Under the pieces are notes generated by a model. It was not told where the DNA came from. It saw only the letters and a program-made list of their open reading frames with translations, and searched no databases. Shown piece after piece: positions 3,387-15,572 of a DNA stretch of 64,000 bases (position 1 is its first letter; the number at the start of each line of letters is the position of its first letter). The stretch is from Sedimentibacter saalensis (lineage in GTDB: Bacteria > Bacillota > Clostridia > Tissierellales > Sedimentibacteraceae), in the NCBI RefSeq assembly GCF_007830175.1, contig NZ_VLKH01000008.1:62001-126000 (forward strand), written 5' to 3'. The position numbers and the translations under genes are program-made.

Positions 3387-4559
3387 TTAGCAGTCACATT
3401 GTTCTTTAGAAACAAATTCTGCATCTGCAAGTACTTTAATTGCTGTCTTTGTTATAGAATCATTAACTAAAATAATCGGACCTGTACATCCCATACCACT
3501 TTCAGCATAAATACCTTGTTTCCACAATACTTTTACAGCCTCCTCAAGATCCATAATTTCAATTCCAGAAATTTGTGAAGTAACAACTTCCTTTTTAGGT
3601 GCTACAACTTCTTCATCAGATATTTCTTTTTTTGTTGACTTTAAACCTTTTAAAATCTCCTTTAACCCTGCTTCATTAGCTTTGGCAAATTCATCTTTTG
3701 CTATCTGTATGCAATTTCCTCTTACAAGCTCAGCTGCATATTTTATAGCTCCTTCAACTAAAGGTGCACCCGAAGCTCTTGAAATAATCATTATTAATTT
3801 CTCAAAACCTTCACCAATGCCGGGTCCATAACCATATCCTATGGATTCATAGTTTCCACCTGTTGTATAAGATGAAAATATTTTAATTAATAAGTTTCCT
3901 GTTAAGGAATCCATTACCATTACATCTGCAGATGCCATCAGTAAATCATTTCCTCTCATTATAGAACCGCCATCTGCTCTTTGCGAATCAGCAAATGTTA
4001 TATCATAGCCTTGTGATTGCAATTTTTTAAGTGCAATTTCAGTTTGTCTGGCACCATCTATATTCAATATGCCAACAGTTGGATTTTTAATGCCGCAAGC
4101 TTTAGCTGTAATAATTCCATAAATAGCATTTTTCACCATGCCTTCAACTTTATCAGTAGATGAAGTACCTGTAGTTGTAGCTATAAACATTTCTTTACCC
4201 TTACCAGGTGTAATAATTCTTCCTACAGTTGATACTCCAATTGGAAATGGATAATGCATTGTAACTGCTGCATCTATTTCTTTTGAATTTAACAATGATT
4301 CCATCATTTTATGTGCTTGGTCTTCTGTTTCTATCTTTTCTGTTTTTATACCTTCTGCAGTTTGAGATCCTAAAACAATTACCTCAATTCCACTTTTTTG
4401 TGCCTTTAATGATGCTTCTAAAATATTTTTCTCGCCATGTTCACTTCCCATAGCAGTAATACCAATTTTAGGTTTTTTCCCATATTCCCCAGTATTAAGT
4501 GTATCTGCTAACTGATTAAAAATATTACCTATTATTTGATTTACTTGTTTTTCTGACAT
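3387..4559 (-). CDS. grdD: Glycine/sarcosine/betaine reductase component C subunit alpha
   Basis: GrdD (390 residues) works with GrdC as protein C. Protein C receives the carboxymethyl group from selenoprotein A and releases acetyl phosphate, which yields ATP through acetate kinase. The fold resembles PlsX-type phosphotransacylases. The C-terminal YAESGMGCTGPIIL holds Cys358, which matches the position of the reactive cysteine known from GrdD. It is the last gene of the operon, 10 bases after grdC, and shares its transcript. No clear terminator follows it. The ATG start is preceded by AGGAGTG. Confidence 0.94.
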   Translation of the reverse strand: MSEKQVNQIIGNIFNQLADTLNTGEYGKKPKIGITAMGSEHGEKNILEASLKAQKSGIEVIVLGSQTAEGIKTEKIETEDQAHKMMESLLNSKEIDAAVTMHYPFPIGVSTVGRIITPGKGKEMFIATTTGTSSTDKVEGMVKNAIYGIITAKACGIKNPTVGILNIDGARQTEIALKKLQSQGYDITFADSQRADGGSIMRGNDLLMASADVMVMDSLTGNLLIKIFSSYTTGGNYESIGYGYGPGIGEGFEKLIMIISRASGAPLVEGAIKYAAELVRGNCIQIAKDEFAKANEAGLKEILKGLKSTKKEISDEEVVAPKKEVVTSQISGIEIMDLEEAVKVLWKQGIYAESGMGCTGPIILVNDSITKTAIKVLADAEFVSKEQCDC

Positions 4560-4569
4560 ATCTACACTC

Positions 4570-6105
4570 CTATTCTGCTAAAAGATTTGAAGCGAAATTT
4601 TTCAGTGCTTTTGCTATCAGTCCCTTAATTTGTTCTTCTGATACATATCCTTGTTCTTCTGTTTTTCCTTGATTTGCTTCAATTACGAATGATACACCAT
4701 CAAAAAGATTTGTCATTCTGCCAAGGAACAAGCTTCCTTTGCCTATAACCATTGCATTTTTGATTTTTCCGTCAAGTATATCCTGTCTTCCAAATCCTAT
4801 AAATGGTACCCCTGAAGGAATGTGCCCTTGAGTTGGAGCCCAACCTACCATACCATGTCTTTCTGCAAAACTTGCTAAATCATTCTTTTCTATATCTCCT
4901 CTTTTTACTGCTAATGCGCCTATCATTTTGTAGTTAGCCAAAGGTACATCCCCTGCTCCAGCCGGCTTTGTAATATCAGGATTTTGCATTTCTACAGAAT
5001 ATTTATCTATATCTGTAATCTTCATCTGAGCTTTATCTAATGCTTGTGTTACTAAAGATGTAATAACAGCCTGAGGGGATGAGCCAGTTCCAACCATGTG
5101 TTTTCCAACTAGGTCAACTCTAATTTCTGGATTTACACCATCATTTTCACTTATTAATACAGCAAAACCTCCAAGAACATCTTCAAGTATTGGGATACCT
5201 TTTTTTACATGGTCTTTACCATTCATTCCAAGTTTTGCTGTACATCCACCAGCTGAAACAATAACATTTTTATAAGTACCTGCTTTGACAAGTGATGCTG
5301 CCTGAATTAACGCATGTGTAGGTGCAGCACAAAATCCTCTTACGTCAGAACCCGTTGAATTTATTAAGCCGGCTACTTCTGCACATGCTTTTGCAAAGTT
5401 ACCGCCACCTCTTTGATTCATATCGCCGCATGCTTCTTCGGAGCAATCAATTACATAATCAATATCTTCCTTATTAATATTGTTTTTTGCAATTAAATTC
5501 ATAATTGCTAAAACATTAGTTGCTTTTGAAGTTAAATTTTCATGCATTACGTGTGCATTTAAATTTATATCTAAATCATGTGCTCTTTTTACACAGCCAA
5601 CTAAACTTTTATCGTGATAAATTGGCTCCGAATGTTCTTCATAAACTAATTTATTAATTATTTCGGCTTCATCGCCTTCCTTCAGTCTATCTAATAAATC
5701 AGCTCCTATAAGAGGATGATTCATTAGTTTAATTTTAGTAGTTTCTACAAAGTTTTTTTCTAGTTTAACAAGATCAAATACATCACAGATCTGCATTAAA
5801 CATATAAATTCGTCTTGAGGCATTATTTCGCCATATTTTCCGAATCTTGTTGCTGCACTTATTTCTTTGTCATACCATGGTTGTTCAATTTGTACAAGCT
5901 CATCTGGGGTTACATTTCCAATATATGATTGATTAGGTGGATATTTAACAACTTGTTCAAATGTTCTTAAATGACTTTCAATTTGCTTCAAATATTCCGA
6001 TTCAGGGTTTATTGTTCTTTCAGTAGTTTGAGTAGTGCCATTTTGCAATACCATGTCTGGTGTAAATGCCAATATATAGCTTGCACCTTTAATTACACTG
6101 TTCAT
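4570..6105 (-). CDS. grdC: Glycine/sarcosine/betaine reductase component C subunit beta
   Basis: GrdC (511 residues) is the FabH/thiolase-like half of protein C, which with GrdD converts the Se-carboxymethyl group of GrdA to acetyl phosphate. The characteristic N-terminus with LAFTPDMVLQNGTTQTTE, the central FCAAPTHALIQAAS with a likely active-site Cys-Ala-Ala, and the SAGGCTAKLGMNGKDH segment are present. Length is typical. It starts at ATG with GGAGGTAAAT upstream and is separated from grdA by a strong terminator-like hairpin, so its expression is either by readthrough or from a promoter I could not define in 6106-6163. Confidence 0.94.
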   Translation of the reverse strand: MNSVIKGASYILAFTPDMVLQNGTTQTTERTINPESEYLKQIESHLRTFEQVVKYPPNQSYIGNVTPDELVQIEQPWYDKEISAATRFGKYGEIMPQDEFICLMQICDVFDLVKLEKNFVETTKIKLMNHPLIGADLLDRLKEGDEAEIINKLVYEEHSEPIYHDKSLVGCVKRAHDLDINLNAHVMHENLTSKATNVLAIMNLIAKNNINKEDIDYVIDCSEEACGDMNQRGGGNFAKACAEVAGLINSTGSDVRGFCAAPTHALIQAASLVKAGTYKNVIVSAGGCTAKLGMNGKDHVKKGIPILEDVLGGFAVLISENDGVNPEIRVDLVGKHMVGTGSSPQAVITSLVTQALDKAQMKITDIDKYSVEMQNPDITKPAGAGDVPLANYKMIGALAVKRGDIEKNDLASFAERHGMVGWAPTQGHIPSGVPFIGFGRQDILDGKIKNAMVIGKGSLFLGRMTNLFDGVSFVIEANQGKTEEQGYVSEEQIKGLIAKALKNFASNLLAE

Positions 6106-6221: not shown

Positions 6222-6695
6222 TTAAAGATATTTACAGAAGTCTTCTCTAATTGGAGCCATTTCTGAAATTATATCATCAACATCCAATACCATTTCCATC
6301 ATACTTACTTGTTCATCATAAATAGATTCGTCTACTTCATTTTTCATTTCTGGTTCACATATATGGAATACACTGAGTCCTAACTGAACTCCTGTCAATG
6401 GACCTGCGAAAGTTGGGTCTCCATTAGTTACTGTTTCAGCAGCTAACCCTGATGCTTCGCCTTCTGATGCTCCTAATACTACTACTAAATTTTCAGCACC
6501 AAATTTTTCTGCGAATTCTTTAACCCTTTTCTGATTTTCTAAATCCATTGCGCCTGCGGCAGTTCAGACAAAACATTCTGTTGAAGAAAATACTACTTCA
6601 GCTCCAGCACTTTTTACACATTCTTCAATAGCTGGACCTGGTATTCCATCTCTGTCGCCTATTATAACAACTTTTTTGCCTTGTAATAAGCTCAT
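6222..6695 (-). CDS. grdA: Selenoprotein A of glycine/sarcosine/betaine reductase (Sec44)
   Basis: The gene spans 157 codons with an in-frame TGA at 6566-6564, codon 44, read as selenocysteine in the motif CFVU. This Cys-x-x-Sec matches GrdA, whose Sec44 carries the carboxymethyl group between protein B and protein C. A naive annotation would call only the part after the UGA (from ATG 6548). The true start is ATG 6695 with AGGAGGAAAAGT upstream, giving [20 protein letters not shown], the usual N-terminus. It sits between trxA and the terminator before grdC. Synthesis requires selA/B/C/D, which are not in this window. Confidence 0.96.
6564..6566 (-). other. Selenocysteine codon UGA of grdA
   Basis: The TGA lies in frame 43 codons after ATG 6695 and is flanked by conserved GrdA sequence on both sides. 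A bacterial SECIS should follow immediately in the mRNA; I see only a short GCC/GGC stem there and cannot define it. Confidence 0.92.
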
Positions 6696-6755: not shown

Positions 6756-7073
6756 CTATATGTACTTCTTAATCAATGCTTCAACATTCTCCGGAGTTGC
6801 TTCATCTTTAATTAGTTCTTCAATTTTTTCTCCATCTTTATAAATAGATATAACCGGCAATCCTAATATTTTCTGTCCTATAGCAACTCTTCTTGCTTTA
6901 GTAGTATTTAACTTAGCAAATTTCAATTGTTCCCCATATTTCTCGGATAAATCCATAACATGAGGCATCAAAGCCTCACAAGGAGCACATCCATCTCCGA
7001 AAAAGTCTACCAATACATATCCTTTCGATTGTAATACCTCTGTTTCAAAATTTGTTTTATCTAACACTAACAT
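6756..7073 (-). CDS. trxA: Reductase-associated thioredoxin
   Basis: This 105-residue thioredoxin has the active-site sequence [11 protein letters not shown] around residue 30, in place of the common WCGPC. Atypical thioredoxins with a Gly before the first Cys (GCVPC) are known from grd clusters of amino-acid fermenters. It passes electrons from TrxB to re-reduce selenoprotein A and the reductase proteins. It lies 17 bases after trxB and 60 bases before grdA. The ATG start is preceded by AGGAGGC. Confidence 0.95.
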
Positions 7074-7090: not shown

Positions 7091-8023
7091 TTATTCTGAC
7101 AAGAATTTTTCTGCTTGAACCGCTGCAATAGCACCATCTGCGGCTGCTGTCACAACTTGTCTTAAGCTTTTCAACCTAACATCTCCGGCTGCATATACAC
7201 CTTCTACATTAGTTTTCATATTTTCATCAGTAACGATATATCCTTTATCCATATCAATAATACCTTCAAATATATTCGTCTTAGGTGTATATCCTATAAA
7301 CACAAATACACCAAATATGCCATCATCTTCATCAGCAACTAATTCTGTCATTTCACCGGTTTTTAAATTCTCTAATACCATAGAATTAACTAATCCATCA
7401 CCTTTAATTTCATGTACCGCACTATCCCAAATGAAGTTCATCTTCGGATTTGCAAATGCTTTTTCTTGAATAGATTTTGCTGCTCTAAGTTCATCTCTTC
7501 TGTGAATTACAGATACTTTTCTTGCAAACTTTGTTAAGTACATAGCTTCTTCAATGGCAGTATCACCACCACCTACTACAAAAACTTCTAAGCCTTCAAA
7601 GAAAGCACCATCACAAGTTGCACAATAAGATACACCTTTTCCTGTGAATTGTTTTTCTCCGGAACAGCCTATTGGTCTTGATGAAGCTCCAGTTGCTATA
7701 ATAACTGTTTGTCCAATATATTCTGCTTTTTTACCTACTAAAACTTTTTCTTTGCCCTCAAGTTTAACTTCAAGAATTTCATCATATACTTTTTCCGCAC
7801 CAAAATGCTTTGCTTGTTCAGCCATTCTATCTATTAGAGTAGGTCCTGATTCGCCTTCAAGACATCCTGGATAATTTTCTACTTCAGAAGTTAGAACTAT
7901 CTGCCCTCCGTCCTTTTCTTTCTCTATTATCAATGTGCTCATTCTAGCTCTTCCAGCATACAATGCTGCTGTTAACCCTGCTGGACCTGCTCCAATTATT
8001 ATTACATCATAAACATTGCTCAT
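7091..8023 (-). CDS. trxB: Thioredoxin reductase
   Basis: This 310-residue FAD enzyme transfers electrons from NAD(P)H to thioredoxin. It shows the N-terminal [15 protein letters not shown] dinucleotide motif, the redox [10 protein letters not shown] (Cys-x-x-Cys near 135), a second [10 protein letters not shown] motif and the C-terminal YAAGDVR FAD motif. Length matches bacterial low-molecular-weight TrxB. It opens the trxB-trxA-grdA block and is separated from the transporter gene by a 16-bp inverted repeat. The start is ATG with GAGGTG upstream. Confidence 0.96.
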
Positions 8024-8055
8024 TTTACACCTCTTATACTCAATCTAAATAATCC

Positions 8056-8096
8056 ATTATACTTGGAAATTAATAATATAAATTTCCAAGTATAAT
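8056..8096. repeat. Perfect 16-bp inverted repeat between the BCCT gene and trxB
   Basis: ATTATACTTGGAAATT (8056-8071) is the exact complement of 8081-8096, with a 9-base loop. It has no strong U-tract on the minus strand, so it may be a weak terminator, an mRNA-stabilising or processing hairpin, or an operator. It lies about 50 bases past the transporter stop and just ahead of the trxB ribosome site. Confidence 0.8.
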
Positions 8097-8145
8097 GTGA
8101 TTTTATAAATTATTTTCAAATACTGTTTCACCAGTAGCTTCGATA

Positions 8146-9630
8146 TTATTCTTCTTTAAACGCTTTCATCAGAGATACCATTGCAAGCAACATTACAAAT
8201 ATAAAAGGAAAGGCCGCTGCTACTGAAGCAGTCTGCAGTGCTTGAAGTCCACCTGCAAGTAATAGAGAAGTAGCAAATAAAGATTGAACAACTCCCCAAA
8301 TAAACTGTTTCTTGGCTGGTGGATTTAAATTGCCTTGTGAACTAAACATACCTAATACGAATGTAGCCGAATTTGCTGATGTAATGAAAAATGTTCCCAA
8401 TAATACTACTGTTATTAAAGATAAGATTTTACTTAAAGGGTACTGATTGAATACTTGAAACAAAGCAGTAGATGGACTATTTACTGCTAGTTGTAATCCT
8501 TCTATACCTATTTTATCAATTAGGTTAATACCCATAGAACCAAATGCTGCAAACCAAACAATTGATACTACAGCCGGAGCAAATATTACACCCATAATAA
8601 ATTCTCTTATGGTTCTGCCTTTTGATATACGTGCTATAAAAGTTCCTACAAATGGTGCCCAAGCTATCCACCAAGCCCAATAAAACACAGTCCACCCTTT
8701 TAACCAACTATTATCGCCAAAAGCTTCGATATGAAGACTAGCACTTACAAAACCATTAATATATTGACCCAACCCATTTGTTAATGCATTAATTATTTTC
8801 AATGTTGGCCCTAATACAATGGTTAATACAAGTAAGCTAAAAGCAAGTATAAGATTAATGTCTCCTAGTATCTTTATACCTTTGCCTATGCCACTTATCG
8901 CCGTCCAGATATATAAAATTGTAATAATAAATATTATCCCTATCTGAACTATTTTAGTTTCCGGAATATTAAACAAATAATTCAGCCCACTGTTTATCTG
9001 TAAAGTTCCAAGTCCAAGAGACGTAGCTACGCCAGAAACTGTTGCAAATACAGCTAATATATCTATAAATTTTCCAATAGGTCCATTAACTCTCTTCTCT
9101 CCGATTAAAGGAATGAAAATGCTACTAATTAGACCTGGTTTATTTTTTCTAAATTGAAAATAAGCAAGTGCAAGTCCAATGATGCTATAATTAGCCCAAG
9201 GGTGAAATCCCCAGTGCATAAAGGATGTCCTCATAGCAAAATTCGCAGCCTCCATTGTACCAGGCTCTGCCCCAACTGGGTTAACAAAATGTGATATAGG
9301 CTCTGCTACGCCCCAAAACACAAGTCCAATGCCCATGCCTGCTCCAAACAACATACCAAACCAAGATGTTGTACTATATTCTGGTTTTGAATCATCAGGT
9401 CCTAATTTAATAGATCCATATTTGCTAAAAGCTAATAAAAGGGCAAATACAACAAAAGCTAACATAGATAGCAAGTAAGTCCATCCAAAATTAGTTGTAA
9501 GAAAATCAAATATAAAAGTTGCAAAATTTGAAAAATTCTCTTTTGCGATTATTCCCCATAAAACTATAACAATAGATATAGAAAGAGATATATAAAACAC
9601 ACTATTATCTTTTTGATTTAATTTATTCAA
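8146..9630 (-). CDS. BCCT-family betaine/choline/carnitine transporter
   Basis: This 494-residue membrane protein has about 12 hydrophobic segments and the BCCT signatures GAGMGIGLVFWGVAEP near residue 95 and the tryptophan-rich VFYWAWWIAWAPFVG near 315, which forms the quaternary-amine binding box in BetP-like proteins. It ends with the short tail MKAFKEE and lacks the long osmosensing C-terminus of BetP. It sits between the substrate-specific reductase genes and trxB, so it most likely imports glycine betaine (or sarcosine) as electron acceptor; substrate is inference. The start is TTG at 9630 with GGGAGG upstream. Hairpins flank the gene on both sides. Confidence 0.93.
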   Translation of the reverse strand: MNKLNQKDNSVFYISLSISIVIVLWGIIAKENFSNFATFIFDFLTTNFGWTYLLSMLAFVVFALLLAFSKYGSIKLGPDDSKPEYSTTSWFGMLFGAGMGIGLVFWGVAEPISHFVNPVGAEPGTMEAANFAMRTSFMHWGFHPWANYSIIGLALAYFQFRKNKPGLISSIFIPLIGEKRVNGPIGKFIDILAVFATVSGVATSLGLGTLQINSGLNYLFNIPETKIVQIGIIFIITILYIWTAISGIGKGIKILGDINLILAFSLLVLTIVLGPTLKIINALTNGLGQYINGFVSASLHIEAFGDNSWLKGWTVFYWAWWIAWAPFVGTFIARISKGRTIREFIMGVIFAPAVVSIVWFAAFGSMGINLIDKIGIEGLQLAVNSPSTALFQVFNQYPLSKILSLITVVLLGTFFITSANSATFVLGMFSSQGNLNPPAKKQFIWGVVQSLFATSLLLAGGLQALQTASVAAAFPFIFVMLLAMVSLMKAFKEE

Positions 9631-9652
9631 TATGTTCCTCCCTTTTTTATGG

Positions 9653-9682
9653 TTTAGATGAGGGTAAAAACCCTCATCTAAA
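9653..9682 (-). other. Intercistronic 13-bp hairpin between grdH and the BCCT gene
   Basis: TTTAGATGAGGGT pairs perfectly with ACCCTCATCTAAA around a four-base loop. On the minus strand the loop is TTTT and no U-tract follows directly. It lies 7 bases past the grdH stop and 22 bases before the transporter start. It may protect the upstream mRNA 3' end or attenuate. Confidence 0.75.
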
Positions 9683-9688
9683 ATTAGT

Positions 9689-10999
9689 TTAAATTTTCAC
9701 CTTAAATACTGTTTGTTCTTTCACATCATCAGTTAAAGCATCTAGTGCTACACCTACACGATGATATCTAAGTTTCCATTGTTGCTCCTTAGATGTTGAA
9801 GGATCCCCCAATGGATATGGAATAGATATTGTAGGTACTATCTTGTTTGAGCCAACTGTTGTTGCTACAGGTATCAAATTACACATTTGAACTATCGGAA
9901 TTCCTGCTCTTTCAATTTCTTTTACCATCGTTGCACCGCAACGAGTACAGGTACCTCAGGTTGAAGTCATTATAACTCCGTCAACTTTATCTTCAAATAA
10001 TTTTTGTACTATTTCTTTGCCCATTCTTGCTGCTTCAGCTTGAGTGGTTCCTGTGCCTACAGTACTATAGAAATAATCATGTAGCTTTGCTATTTTTCCT
10101 TCTTTTAAATATGCTTTCATTGCATCAATCGGCATTATTACATTTGGATCTGCATCTGCTGCTGCAGGATCAAAACCAGCATGTATAGTCTTATATACTC
10201 CTGATTCTAATCTATCAACATCTGATATATCATATCTTCCCCAGCGTGTTGCTGATGCTGATTGAATTCTATCCGGATTATTTACAGGTACTATTCCACC
10301 GGTTGTTACCATTGCTATATTTGCTTTTGATAAATCTTTTATTGGTGCTGCTATTGGTACTCTGTCTAGTTTTGGTATAGGAAGTTCCGTAATATAAGGC
10401 TGGTCATTCAATTTCTTAATCAACATCTCCACGCCTCTTTGAGCAGCAATCTTTCCTGATTTCAACCAAACTTGAGCTCTAATTCCTCTTGGGAAAAAAC
10501 CTTCTTCATCAGCTGAACCTGTTTCTTCGCCTTTTAGTATTTTATTTGCAAAATTTGCTATTACCTTTATATCACCTCTAAGTTTAGCAGCAGATTTTCC
10601 ACCTTCAAAGATATACATATCTTTTTTAAACATTTCTACCCCAGGATTTTCTACATTCATTGAAGTAATAACTGGTACATTAAATCTTTCCTTAACTGCT
10701 TTACAAATAGTTCCGCATGCTACCCCATATCTACCTGCCTGGAATGCTGGGCCTGCAATAAATATATCAAATTCTTTATCTTCTAAAAATCCCAATATTA
10801 TCTTTACAGCTTCTTCCGTATTTGAACCCATAAAGTTATCACCACAAATTACTGTATGTGTAACTTCTGCTTCAATAGCATCGCTTAGTGCAAGTGATGG
10901 TCCTACCAATCCCTCTCTTATCTCTGGCTTATAATCTGCTTTCTCTTCTCCGCCTATTCCTGCAAAAAATTGATTTATATAATGAATTGCTTTTTTCAT
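9689..10999 (-). CDS. grdH: Betaine/sarcosine reductase protein B selenoprotein subunit (Sec348)
   Basis: This 436-residue selenoprotein is the Sec-containing half of the substrate-specific protein B. It has an in-frame TGA at 9958-9956, codon 348, in the motif TSTU followed by GTCTRC. Without readthrough the gene would appear as two frames (10999-9956 and 9928-9689). It activates the substrate and hands the carboxymethyl group to GrdA. GrdB, GrdF and GrdH are close relatives; the H assignment rests on the partner GrdI-like gene 11 bases upstream and the BCCT gene downstream, so sarcosine-type GrdF is an alternative. ATG start with AGGAGGTG upstream. Confidence 0.9.
9929..9958 (-). promoter_or_regulatory. 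Selenocysteine UGA and SECIS-like hairpin in grdH
   Basis: The UGA (9958-9956) is followed 12 bases later in the mRNA by a six-pair stem CGUUGC-GGU-GCAACG (9943-9929). A small apical stem with a GGU-containing loop at this distance fits the known bacterial SECIS layout read by SelB. Confidence 0.7.
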
Positions 11000-11010
11000 C
11001 TCTACACCTC

Positions 11011-12336
11011 CTAAAATTCTTTCATTGTCTTAGTTGACCAACCAGCTATTCTATCTCCACAGAACATAGCATTATCTTCCATAACAATAGATCCATCTTC
11101 TCTTACAGAAGCTCCAAGCAGCTCATCATAAGACCATCCACCTGATAAACCGTCTCTAGCTAATGATTGTAATTCACCAATTACTTTGTCTGCTGGTGGA
11201 AGTTCAATTAATTGTGAAACGTTGCCTGTAGATACCAACGCATTTGCTTTCTTGTCTAATGTAACAAGTGGTTGAGAAGCTCCATCTCTACCTGTGCATT
11301 CATTACTAATACCTACAGTCTTTACTCCAACATCTTCTAAAGATGAAATGCATAAAATATAATCAGCATCAGGATTTCCATATCCTTCTTCTGTAACTAT
11401 AGCACCATCGGCACCTAAGGATTTTGCCATTTGTGCTACAAATATTGCTGAACGTTTCTTTTGTTCTAATGATACATTTAAGTTTGACATTATAACGCCT
11501 AAGAAATTAATGCTTTTTCCGTGTTCTTTATATAATTCCTTAATAGTTGGAAAATTTTGAAAGTCATATGTGCACCATTTTGAAGAACTAGGCATAAAGC
11601 TACCGGATATCATTGCTCCATCTAATATTTCATTAGGATGCATAAATGTTGGAACAAATTTATTCATATCCCATCCGTACACTAAATCATTATATCCCAA
11701 CTCTTCCATTTGAGACTGAGGTTGCATTACTAATACTACTGATGGAAGTTTACTAATTTCTTCAGATCTTTTAATAACTGAATCTAATTCAAAAACTTCT
11801 GTTTCTTCAGGTACTAAGTCTTTAACTGCATTTCCTAAATATTCTGCTAATTTATGTGTTGCCCATCTAATTGCTCTATTTTTTTTCTGTTGTTCAAATC
11901 TTTCAAATTCTTCATCAGTATCGGCTACTACACATATATTGATGAGTTCTGAAAACAAAGTGTACTTTGCACCTTCTCCACCCATATCAATTAATCCATC
12001 GCCAAAACTACCATAATGCATTCCTACACCTAAAACACTACATCCTTTTAAAGCATGGACTCTTCCGCTACCTGCCGCTTCAACATCTCCAGTTACACCT
12101 GGAAACACCGGTCTGCCATCTGGACGAATCCTAGGTTCTACAGCCTCCTTAACAGGAACTATTCTTGTGTTTTCTCCAGGCTTAGCAATAATTATGTCTA
12201 CATCAATAATGTGCTCATCTTCTTTAAGAAAAGACATCGCCTCTTCTTTGTTAATAGACAGCACTCCATTATGAAACATAGTTTGCTCTCCAAAAACAAC
12301 ATCTTTAACTTGAAAATTACCAATTTCTAATTTCAT
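11011..12336 (-). CDS. grdI: Betaine/sarcosine reductase protein B larger subunit
   Basis: This 441-residue protein (about 48 kDa) belongs to the GrdE/GrdG/GrdI family. It starts MKLEIGNFQVKDVVFGE and carries the conserved LYGWD-like VYGWDMNKFVPT, TEEGYGNPDAD and ECTGRDGASQPL segments. The glycine-type GrdE is a proprotein cleaved at a cysteine near 242; here the matching segment is SGSFMPSSS (244-252) with no Cys, the nearest being Cys255. This fits a betaine or sarcosine enzyme that is not processed to a pyruvoyl form. First gene of the operon, ATG with GGAGTG upstream, 285 bases after the predicted -10. Confidence 0.88.
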   Translation of the reverse strand: MKLEIGNFQVKDVVFGEQTMFHNGVLSINKEEAMSFLKEDEHIIDVDIIIAKPGENTRIVPVKEAVEPRIRPDGRPVFPGVTGDVEAAGSGRVHALKGCSVLGVGMHYGSFGDGLIDMGGEGAKYTLFSELINICVVADTDEEFERFEQQKKNRAIRWATHKLAEYLGNAVKDLVPEETEVFELDSVIKRSEEISKLPSVVLVMQPQSQMEELGYNDLVYGWDMNKFVPTFMHPNEILDGAMISGSFMPSSSKWCTYDFQNFPTIKELYKEHGKSINFLGVIMSNLNVSLEQKKRSAIFVAQMAKSLGADGAIVTEEGYGNPDADYILCISSLEDVGVKTVGISNECTGRDGASQPLVTLDKKANALVSTGNVSQLIELPPADKVIGELQSLARDGLSGGWSYDELLGASVREDGSIVMEDNAMFCGDRIAGWSTKTMKEF

Positions 12337-12613
12337 TTCTTCACTCCTTTTAAGTTAATATAAATAAGCAATTTTTTATAAAATCACTATATTCTTAAAT
12401 TTAAATCTCTTGTGTCAACATTTTTCATTTGATTCTGCAAACATTTTCTTTAAAGTTTCTATATTGTTATTTTTTTTACTAAATTATATTATTTGCTTTT
12501 TAGAGCAATTTTATACGCAACAAGCAAACAATTTCAAAGCAAAATAACTTACAGTGTTTGAAATATTTTACATTTTTTAACTAATAAATGTTTTAATTGT
12601 TAAGTTAATTTAT
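12337..12613 (-). other. Long AT-rich leader of the grd operon
   Basis: The promoter at 12621-12649 leaves about 277 bases of untranslated leader before grdI. I see no conserved riboswitch core, no terminator hairpin and no convincing leader peptide. A TTGACA at 12419-12414 has no well-spaced -10. Confidence 0.4.
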
Positions 12614-12620
12614 TAACGAT

Positions 12621-12649
12621 ATATTAACATAATCATGATTATATGTCAA
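12621..12649 (-). promoter_or_regulatory. Promoter with palindromic operator for grdI operon
   Basis: The minus strand shows -35 TTGACA (12649-12644), a 17-base spacer and -10 TAATAT (12626-12621). The spacer holds the perfect 14-base palindrome ATAATCATGATTAT (12629-12642). A near-identical element lies in the tetR promoter, so this is the likely operator of the adjacent TetR-type repressor. Confidence 0.78.
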
Positions 12650-12727
12650 TCGTTATTATTTTACAATCTAAATTTATTTTTTTCTTACTCCTAGGTTATT
12701 TTTATATTTATTAAATATTTAAAAAGC

Positions 12728-12762
12728 AAAAAACCTCGATATTTAAAAATCGAGGTTTTTTC
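12728..12762. terminator. Intrinsic terminator after tetR, bidirectional
   Basis: AAAACCTCGAT (12730-12740) pairs with ATCGAGGTTTT (12749-12759), with an A-run on the left and T-run on the right. It lies 14 bases past the tetR stop and isolates tetR from the grdI promoter. Confidence 0.88.
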
Positions 12763-12775
12763 TACTTATTCGTAT

Positions 12776-13426
12776 TTAATTTCTTTTCATTATTATGTAT
12801 TCAATAATTTTCATAGTTTCCCGTATAGACTGCTCGATGCTTTTTTCATTTCCAACAACTTTTTCGTGCAATATCCCTTGAAAACTATAAATTATTGTTT
12901 GGTTAATTATATCGAAATACTCTTCTTTTATTATTCCATCCTCTATGAGAGGATACAAGATTATCTTATTCCTATCATAAATACTTTGAAATTTTAACAT
13001 CTTTAATATTTCTCCATTGGATTCTCCCAACTCTTCAGGAAAAATATTATAATATTCATTAATGGTTTCTTTCAATATATCTTTATATTTGCCAAAAAAA
13101 ATATTATAAAAAATTTTAGGATTTTCAAATGAAAACTTACAGAAACACTCCCAAGTTTTCATAAAAACCTCAAGTGAATTATTTGAATTTTTAATAAATT
13201 TAGGTAATTCTAAAATGTATTCTTTCAAATACTTCATTGATGTGAAGAATATCAGATGATCCAAATCTTCAAAATAATTATACAATGTAGCACTATTGTA
13301 GCCTGCTATGTCTGCAACATTTCTTATTGTTACATTTTCTATTCCATCATTATCAATTATTTTATTTGTGGCTTCAATAAAATACAAAAGCATTCTTTTT
13401 CTTTGTATTTCTTTATTAGTTGACAT
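12776..13426 (-). CDS. TetR/AcrR-family transcriptional regulator
   Basis: This 216-residue protein has an N-terminal TetR helix-turn-helix (VTIRNVADIAGYNSATLYNYF, residues about 25-45) and a helical ligand/dimer domain that I cannot assign to a ligand class. It lies upstream of the grd operon on the same strand and is separated from it by a terminator and a promoter. Both its own promoter and the grdI promoter carry the same operator-like element, so it probably represses itself and the reductase operon and is released by a substrate such as betaine. That regulation is inference from shared DNA. Confidence 0.9.
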   Translation of the reverse strand: MSTNKEIQRKRMLLYFIEATNKIIDNDGIENVTIRNVADIAGYNSATLYNYFEDLDHLIFFTSMKYLKEYILELPKFIKNSNNSLEVFMKTWECFCKFSFENPKIFYNIFFGKYKDILKETINEYYNIFPEELGESNGEILKMLKFQSIYDRNKIILYPLIEDGIIKEEYFDIINQTIIYSFQGILHEKVVGNEKSIEQSIRETMKIIEYIIMKRN

Positions 13427-13579
13427 ATATAACTCTCCTTCTTAATTTATATTTTACATTTTTGTCACAACTCATCAAAGTTATATAAATTAATTAGTAT
13501 GCATTTACTTAATTTATAATTAAGTCACCTCTTAGCACTTGGAAACTCTATTATAAATATAAAGCTAAATGTTATGTTG

Positions 13580-13607
13580 ATTATAGCATAATCACGATTT
13601 ATGTCAA
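13580..13607 (-). promoter_or_regulatory. tetR promoter with operator-like element
   Basis: Minus strand -35 TTGACA (13607-13602), 16-base spacer, -10 TATAAT (13585-13580). The spacer AAATCGTGATTATG matches the grdI promoter spacer (AATCATGATTATG) and both follow TTGACATA directly. Confidence 0.78.
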
Positions 13608-13641
13608 CGTATACTTTTTTCACTAAATATCAAAAGCCTAA

Positions 13642-14094
13642 TTATCTGATATACACTAATGAAGCAAGGTATATTTGATCTTCAAGCTTAACACACTTGA
13701 TATTATAATTTTTTACCATGGTGAATTCACCGTCGTAACCGCTCATCTGCCATTTCAAATCAGCATTAATGTTCATATAATAATCTGTCTTTTCCAGGCT
13801 GTTAATTTTATCAACTTCAACACTTAAAGCAAGTTCGTAGTCTGTGGGGCAGTCAATAACCTTGTATAAAATGTCGAGATCGTTTTCCAGAAGATTTTCC
13901 GCTTCTATTTTTTCCAGCTTTTCTTCCAATTTTCCCATGTCCTTATAGCCGTAAAGAAATTCATTCATTACCTCTATGCGCTCATTGAGCAAATATTCTA
14001 TGCTGTCTATTTCCTCGTAGTATTGGTAATATCCAAAAGAATTATAACTAAAAAGAAGCGAAATAAGCATTATGAAGATAAATCTGTTTCTCAT
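13642..14094 (-). CDS. Secreted protein of unknown function
   Basis: I do not recognise this 150-residue protein. It starts with a short charged stretch and a hydrophobic core (FIFIMLISLLFSYNSFG) that reads as a signal peptide with cleavage near residue 22. The mature part is acidic, has a charged helical stretch (residues about 50-70), two cysteines (CPTDYE, IKCVKLE) and aromatic beta-like segments. No lipobox is present. It lies just upstream of tetR on the same strand; the tetR promoter lies directly past its stop, so any link to the grd system is unproven. The ATG start has a weak GGGGGAT site. Confidence 0.6.
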   Translation of the reverse strand: MRNRFIFIMLISLLFSYNSFGYYQYYEEIDSIEYLLNERIEVMNEFLYGYKDMGKLEEKLEKIEAENLLENDLDILYKVIDCPTDYELALSVEVDKINSLEKTDYYMNINADLKWQMSGYDGEFTMVKNYNIKCVKLEDQIYLASLVYIR

Positions 14095-15385: not shown

Positions 15386-15572
15386 AAAAAAAATAAAACC
15401 CGCGAGAGCCGCAAATTATTAATTCATACCCGCATCTAAGCAGGTGGGATTTCTGTTGAGCAATTCTGACTTCCCGTCGAAGCGGGCCTGTCATAGGCAC
15501 TCAAACTCGAATTCCCTTTTACAGTATGTCGGTTGAATTAAAAAATTTCCGTGAACCGCAGGCTTTTAAGTT
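15386..15572 (-). ncRNA. ssrS: Structured ncRNA, candidate 6S RNA
   Basis: A strong promoter and a terminator bound an RNA of about 187 bases with no open frame and higher GC than its surroundings. The ends pair over nine bases (15558-15566 with 15395-15403), followed by an A/U stem. A side hairpin ACCTGC/GCGGGT (15445-15440 with 15433-15428) sits on the 3' strand of a central open region. The apical arm stacks GGGA/TCCC, TTGAG/CTCAA, TGAC/GTCA and CCCG/CGGG (15486-15483 with 15476-15473). The single rod, central bubble and 3'-side hairpin are the layout of Firmicute 6S RNA. The family call rests on size and fold, not on a search. Confidence 0.6.

Follow-up and report, generated by a model that had tools for sequence, protein, structure and literature searches.

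The window, by which we mean the whole 64-kb stretch of DNA analysed here, carries on its minus strand a gene for a TetR-type regulator and, downstream of it, genes in the order grdI-grdH-betaine transporter-trxB-trxA-grdA-grdC-grdD (scores are given against the cut-offs of the respective models):

12776..13426, minus strand: tetR-type regulator of 216 aa with a TetR_N domain (PF00440), here named grdR after the C. ljungdahlii annotation
11011..12336, minus strand: grdI, betaine reductase component B subunit, from an orthologue set at 68% identity or more, other matches reaching 47% at most
9689..10999, minus strand: grdH, selenoprotein subunit, in-frame TGA read as Sec (NF040795, betaine_GrdH, 850 versus 775)
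8146..9630, minus strand: BCCT glycine betaine transporter (NF047988, 686.4 versus 650)
7091..8023, minus strand: trxB, thioredoxin reductase (TIGR01292, 382.1 versus 343.45)
6756..7073, minus strand: trxA, thioredoxin-like, named from position and sequence
6222..6695, minus strand: grdA, selenoprotein A, in-frame TGA (NF040748, 279.8 versus 130)
4570..6105, minus strand: grdC, component C beta (NF040746, 817.5 versus 450)
3387..4559, minus strand: grdD, component C alpha (NF040747, 573.5 versus 350)

With a betaine-specific GrdH, an in-frame TGA accompanied by a SECIS element, selenoprotein A, component C and a betaine carrier, these genes make up a glycine betaine reductase operon. The SECIS_4 element of grdH, found by the Rfam scan, lies at 9918-9955 (66.4 versus 38), and GrdH stays below the cut-offs for the other reductases (583.5 versus 800 for sarcosine, 513.8 versus 602.2 for glycine). 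The genes grdI through grdD are probably carried on one transcript. A structured leader RNA was considered and rejected, as the Rfam scan of the 64 kb gave SECIS_4 and 6S only; the 6S RNA match is on the minus strand at 15393-15567 (74.1 bits versus a gathering score of 46.4). Further downstream on the minus strand, beyond grdD and an aminopeptidase-like gene, are NuoE- and NuoF-like genes, named by eye (2-1389), at which neither the 14-mer nor the paired searches described below give an operator match.

Upstream of tetR and of grdI, the following promoters and predicted operator elements are recognized:

13580..13607, minus strand: tetR promoter, TTGACA-N16-TATAAT, with TG before the -10 (promoter scan)
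13589..13600, minus strand: predicted tetR operator, main element AAATCGTGATTA, in the -35/-10 spacer (12-mer search)
13572..13583, minus strand: predicted tetR operator, second, weak element TAATCAACATAA, overlapping the -10, 17 bp from the main element, 3 mismatches
12728..12761, no strand assigned: terminator-like hairpin separating tetR from the grdI promoter, 13 pairs, with a T tail on both strands
12647..12658, minus strand: predicted grdI operator, second element TAATAACGATTG, overlapping the -35 (paired-element search)
12630..12641, minus strand: predicted grdI operator, main element TAATCATGATTA, a perfect palindrome (sequence and 12-mer search)
12621..12649, minus strand: grdI promoter, TTGACA-N17-TAATAT, with TG before the -10 (promoter scan)

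The sequence and the promoter scan place both promoters, and the element within each, where the first-pass annotation had them. On the minus strand, the grdI promoter consists of TTGACA (12649-12644) and TAATAT (12626-12621) with a 17-nt spacer between, and the tetR promoter of TTGACA (13607-13602) and TATAAT (13585-13580) with a spacer of 16 nt. In both, the palindrome TAATCRTGATTA or a near copy stands directly 5' of the extended -10; at grdI the spacer palindrome is the 14-mer ATAATCATGATTAT (12629-12642), and AAATCGTGATTATG is its counterpart in the tetR promoter, at the same spacer position, the main element there being a moderate match with 2 mismatches. The similarity over 21 aligned bases reported earlier is present, but its alignment takes a gap of one base, and the common -35 hexamer accounts for some of the identity. 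The operator had also been described as lying within the spacer alone, and this has to be revised: the second elements, absent from that description, extend the pair over the -35 at grdI and over the -10 at tetR. The element TAATAACGATTG is exactly 17 bp upstream of the grdI main element, with 3 mismatches to the consensus and 2 to TAATCATGATTG, the form in which the second site is usually found. Of 34 promoter-like matches in 8000-13800, the tetR promoter ranks first (12/12, TG before the -10), and the grdI promoter scores 10/12, also with TG; the total of 34 in this interval is no excess over shuffles (mean 30.6). Because the terminator-like hairpin separates tetR from the grdI promoter, grdI probably needs this promoter of its own.

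As to the probability of such sites arising by chance, single-site statistics, in the window as well as in the genome, are at chance level, and we do not use them as evidence. Allowing up to 3 mismatches, the 14-mer shows no enrichment in the 64-kb window (13 matches versus 14.5 expected), and the 12-mer TAATCRYGATTA at up to one mismatch is found at 41 places in 3.83 Mb versus 39 for the reversed control, with the exact TAATCRYGATTA occurring once in the 3.83-Mb genome, at the grdI site. Thirteen of these 41 places comprise the grdI site, eight sites within open frames of at least 250 aa and four outside such frames, and, judging by coordinates, other one-mismatch sites were rejected as extra targets (two in C9, along with C3:205949 and C8:28493, all placed within reading frames or at their ends). 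A paired model, of two 12-mers 17 bp apart with mismatches summed over both, gives exactly two matches in the window at up to 5 mismatches, at 12630 (grdI, 3 mismatches) and at 13572 (tetR, 5 mismatches), versus a mean of 0.035 per window in 200 simulated 64-kb sequences, and a limit of 3 mismatches leaves a single match in the whole genome, that at grdI. The 12-mer consensus was derived from the window grdI site, and thus the tetR match is an independent test of it; the spacing of 17 bp came first from relatives, and the cut-off of 5, at which the tetR pair exactly lies, is one of three tried. With single-site searches at chance level, the case rests on the relatives.

Relatives of the regulator are present in 35 of the 61 genomes searched. 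In 18 loci read closely (L006, the window's own, to L023), GrdI is found in the fetched stretch of 15, and (T)AATCATGATTA palindromes are visible by eye upstream in most. A larger sample, referred to here as the named loci, is made of the best 80 of 331 relatives found via the motif AT[LI]YNYF[EKD]; it includes duplicates (L103 and L112 are near-identical upstream, and C. carboxidivorans and C. drakei are represented by two loci each), and several of these loci are from the same genomes as the G handles used below. GrdI (at least 55% identity) is in the fetched stretch of 63 of these 80 loci, in 53 divergent from tetR; of the remainder, 9 have other grd-cluster genes and 8 have none. In Tissierella praeacuta (L151), for instance, the two genes are divergent and the sites perfect. 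Of the 63, 27 have a perfect TAATCATGATTA in the 450 bp preceding GrdI (permuted controls: mean 0.017, maximum 1), and 43 have one with no more than a single mismatch (mean 0.71, maximum 8), the controls being 59 palindromes obtained by permuting the half-site. Upstream of tetR, the respective numbers are 28 and 50 of 79. Among the 27 loci without a divergent tetR-grdI pair, 12 have a site (up to one mismatch, 350 bp) upstream of tetR (controls: mean 0.14, maximum 2) and 15 have none. In the window, an operator-like site accompanies both the regulator's own promoter and the neighbouring operon, as is typical of a local autorepressor, and these 12 loci point the same way. Within 350 bp and at up to one mismatch, sites precede genes at the operon front (GrdI in 43 of 63, BCCT in 6 of 48, TrxB in 4 of 27) and hardly ever internal genes (GrdA in 1 of 32, TrxA in 1 of 28, GrdH in 0 of 59, GrdC in 0 of 24). 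Across the named loci, the conserved palindromes are at the expected promoters only. None of 16 glycine-reductase-type control regions has a site at up to one mismatch, these regions having been picked from lower-identity rows of the GrdI search and assigned to GrdE from identity and gene order.

A second view of the linkage starts from grdI. Within the taxonomic order of the window, GrdI is found at 68% identity or more at 43 places in 120 genomes, with a clear gap to the other matches (47% or less), and among the 41 places with upstream DNA, TetR is in the stretch in 35, a site (up to one mismatch, 450 bp) in 30, and both in 27. The first-pass annotation had named absence of the element from genomes that keep the gene order as the observation that would speak against it; with a site in 30 of the 41 places and none in 11, its idea is not refuted, and the conserved gene neighbourhood together with the conserved site strongly supports the proposed shared operator and dedicated regulator.

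The second copy, 17 bp away, emerged from aligning the sites of relatives. Pairs at this spacing are found in 37 of the 63 grdI regions at up to 4 mismatches in all (controls: mean 0.08, maximum 3) and in 41 of the 63 at up to 5 (mean 0.29, maximum 9). At the cut-off of 5, the next-best among spacings 12 to 44 is 34, twice 17, with 17 loci; counts are likewise elevated at spacings of 14, 20, and 23 (16, 15, and 12 loci), which probably reflects the similarity of the palindrome to its own copy shifted by 3. Overall, 47 of the 63 grdI loci have a good single or a good paired site, and 16 have no recognizable site of either kind. A -10-like hexamer begins 3 bp beyond the 12-mer in 26 of the 43 grdI operators; 18 of these 26 have TG ahead of it, and 16 have a -35-like hexamer at 16-18 nt. 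This overlap of the operator with the core promoter argues for repression by exclusion. At non-divergent tetR genes, a -10-like hexamer directly follows the site in 1 of 12 cases, unlike the placement in the window, and autoregulation in these relatives may therefore work from other positions.

Linkage of regulator, site and grdI is not universal. At 8 of the 41 places, TetR is in the stretch and no site is found at up to one mismatch within 450 bp (G107, G109, G031, G114, G079, G015, G021, G077), the siteless grdI being a second grdI copy in each of G015 and G021. Others have a site and no TetR in the stretch (G065, G056, G026), with TetR about 2 kb away in G056 and on another contig in G026. 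In G065 (L185:2844), a grdI gene 88% identical keeps a one-mismatch site, and neither this genome nor G080 has a relative of the window TetR at E up to 1e-20. Yet others have neither in the stretch (G080, G061, G084), the lack of a site in G084 being uncertain because of a run of N upstream of grdI. A site is found before grdA, which there precedes grdI, in G061 and G114, and beside the TetR gene in G079, and a TetR relative is encoded farther off in G061 and G084.

Sites are also found away from grdI, and not with betaine-reductase genes alone. One example is presented by L088, L089, and L137, in which a site shares the stretch with a glycine-reductase-type paralogue, and in L089 and L137 precedes trxB. 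In L089 (7920-7948) and L088 (192-220), which belong to the same genus, a paired operator precedes a trxB-grdA-grdC-grdD module (the module being seen in L089), away from the tetR-grdI locus and just 3' of that paralogue. Operators before a separate trxB module are found in L089, L102, L137, and L176, and in L111 TetR adjoins trxB. Another example concerns electron input: in L105 (6469-7214), an operator copy lies about 200 bp before a NuoE-type gene, with TetR on the same stretch, and in L084 (3043-4083) an operator pair lies about 500 bp before a NuoE/NuoF-type gene, hinting that electron supply may be co-regulated with betaine reduction. A third example is the Bacillus-type loci (L145, L150, L157, L166, L169), in which this TetR occurs with a site close to the gene for GrdI or the carrier, a grdH with an in-frame TGA, trxB, and other grd genes; GrdH in the two that were scanned falls below the betaine cut-off of 775 (766.9 in L157, 691.2 in L145).

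Relatives of the regulator without grd genes nearby are found at L175:8844-13045, L171:9717-15608, and L170:8983-12619, the source organisms being C. symbiosum, a Lachnospiraceae bacterium, and Blautia hansenii. L171 and L175 keep the regulator and sites without any grd gene, and in L175 perfect sites precede the regulator gene and a beta-Ala-His dipeptidase gene, behind which lies a transporter gene; no site is found in L170. Perfect 17-mer matches inside reading frames (L086, L090, L091) we take as chance, as we do the one in L087 (G024) before V-ATPase-like genes, recognized by eye, in a genome with no TetR relative at E up to 1e-20; across 120 genomes, the 17-mer gives 29 rows versus 15 for the reversed control.

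A joint reading of these loci, to which we would give somewhat less than an even chance, is that of one old GrdR regulon in Clostridia, Tissierellales-type, Halanaerobiales, and Bacillus-type organisms, in which one TetR subfamily would bind cooperatively to pairs spaced by 17 bp and, with betaine as the inducer, would control grdI-grdH and the carrier, a separate trxB-grdA-grdCD module, and sometimes a NuoEF-type electron-input complex.

As to the regulator itself, it matches PF00440 (TetR_N) at 27.6 bits versus a cut-off of 24, and its AlphaFold2 model (pLDDT 92.5) matches TetR folds; the all-helical fold with a C-terminal ligand domain places it in the TetR family. Eighteen sequences found without a motif filter (the A1 set) all match PF00440 at E up to 0.001, and in all 18, the window protein included, G42-Y43-N44, A46, T47, and Y49-F52 of the DNA-recognition region are invariant; in the A2 set the same invariance is by construction, because the named loci were found via the motif. 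The residues W92, F95, F110, Y125, Y126, and R152 are each conserved in 54 to 57 of 57 sequences. Residues of this kind would suit betaine; an argument from an aromatic cage gives no more than a hint of a betaine ligand. In both dipeptidase-linked proteins (L170 and L175, n = 2), W92 is replaced by Y.

These observations make it very probable that the TetR protein is a dedicated, autoregulating repressor of the betaine-reductase operon, as far as the core of operator and repressor is concerned. We infer that the window TetR binds these sites and that binding represses, the latter because the site lies on the -35/-10 elements. Dimers of the regulator would bind paired 12-bp palindromes of the TAATCATGATTA form, with a spacing of 17 bp within the pair, both at the grdI promoter and, less strongly, at that of tetR. 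The bound pair would cover the -35, the spacer and the TG/-10, excluding RNA polymerase, which would keep the operon off and hold down the level of the regulator itself. The regulator would then be released from DNA on binding a small molecule, most likely glycine betaine taken up by the co-encoded BCCT carrier; betaine as the inducer is a reasonable guess, and one we moderately favour.

Three of the alternatives concern the sites and the mode of action. A resemblance arising by chance from the A+T richness of promoter DNA would agree with the lack of enrichment in the loose window searches; it is in effect refuted by the enrichment over permuted controls at dozens of loci, by the fixed 17-bp spacing, and by the match of the pair model to the tetR promoter. 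Use of the sites by another DNA-binding protein, with TetR as a bystander, appears quite improbable: binding by TetR is a prediction, and G065 keeps its one-mismatch site with no TetR relative detected, but TetR and site go together at 27 of the 41 grdI places, G080, in which no such TetR is found, has no site, and sites precede tetR genes without a nearby grdI in 7 of 17 cases. We give marginally less weight still to a regulator that activates, or that both activates and represses, for which a few loci with sites far upstream of grdI could be cited (366 and 325 bp in L177, for example); against it, the operator abuts the -10-like hexamer in the 26 of 43 cases described above, both window promoters are near consensus and would normally need no activator, and the authors of the C. 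ljungdahlii study, in the portions of PMC13241827 available, write of a repressor.

The most serious alternative accepts the same TetR and the same sites and replaces betaine with another releasing signal, such as selenium supply, the state of redox or of thioredoxin, a product, or an amine or peptide signal of a broader kind. As would fit such a signal, dipeptidase and transporter genes (L175) and NuoEF-type genes (L105) occur with relatives that share the recognition region, but in most of the 80 named loci the regulator is accompanied by betaine-reductase genes, in many also by a BCCT carrier, and the conserved W92, F95, F110, Y125, Y126, and R152 would suit betaine, so that overall we regard it as unlikely, if well ahead of the other alternatives. 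Part of its support comes from C. ljungdahlii, for which the available portions of PMC13241827 (2026) list a gene set of grdD, grdC, grdA, trxA, trxB, opuD, grdH, grdI, and grdR, the last described as 'glycine reductase transcriptional regulator.' A figure legend there reports that in microbial electrosynthesis the 'known repressor' of the pathway, in our reading the listed grdR, is down and the gene set up, the grdA protein excepted, and the authors tie the rise to a reduced state. A repressor named for this pathway also speaks for the proposed role of the window TetR. A repressor going down while its operon goes up is unlike plain autorepression with release by a ligand, and, as far as the available portions of that paper go (PMC13241827), this is the main result against the simple form of the model.

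We found little in print on the transcriptional control of betaine reductase. No description of the operator was found in the literature, most subscription journals being outside the search, and the searchable literature gave no link of the target operon to a paired site of this kind. A defined operator would make the regulon findable in any genome, would help to tell betaine-reductase from glycine-reductase operons, which are annotated alike, and would make a single gel shift or reporter enough to test an inducer. Trimethylamine feeds methanogens. GrdHI converts glycine betaine into acetyl phosphate and trimethylamine, the latter a TMAO precursor (PMC12155760, available portions), and the wide GrdR regulon, if true, would place the anaerobic release of trimethylamine from betaine under direct transcriptional control.

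Among known systems, BetI is likewise of the TetR type and gives the best NCBIfam matches of the window protein, which are weak and remain far below the cut-offs (28.5 versus 201.3 for TIGR03384, 29.5 versus 118 for NF001978), and we thus reject identity with BetI. BetI is a choline-responsive local repressor of quaternary-amine genes, and it controls the making of betaine, not its reduction. From QacR, FadR, and other local autorepressors of the TetR family, the present system differs in its paired 12-bp palindromes at a fixed spacing of 17 bp. A known counterpart is the grdR of C. ljungdahlii: the gene set listed in the available portions of PMC13241827 matches the gene order at L138 (C. ljungdahlii ERI-2), in which the TetR is 44% identical to that of the window and has the same neighbours, and two elements with 2 mismatches each lie 17 bp apart upstream of grdI, as in the window, while tetR and grdI are divergent, unlike in the window. 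The enzyme is called glycine reductase in those portions of PMC13241827, which give no operator, ligand or binding data, and the GrdH encoded at L138:5753-9603 scores as betaine reductase (868 versus a cut-off of 775, and 515.3 versus 602.2 with the glycine-reductase model). The system described here is ordinary in kind, and its regulon appears new in detail.
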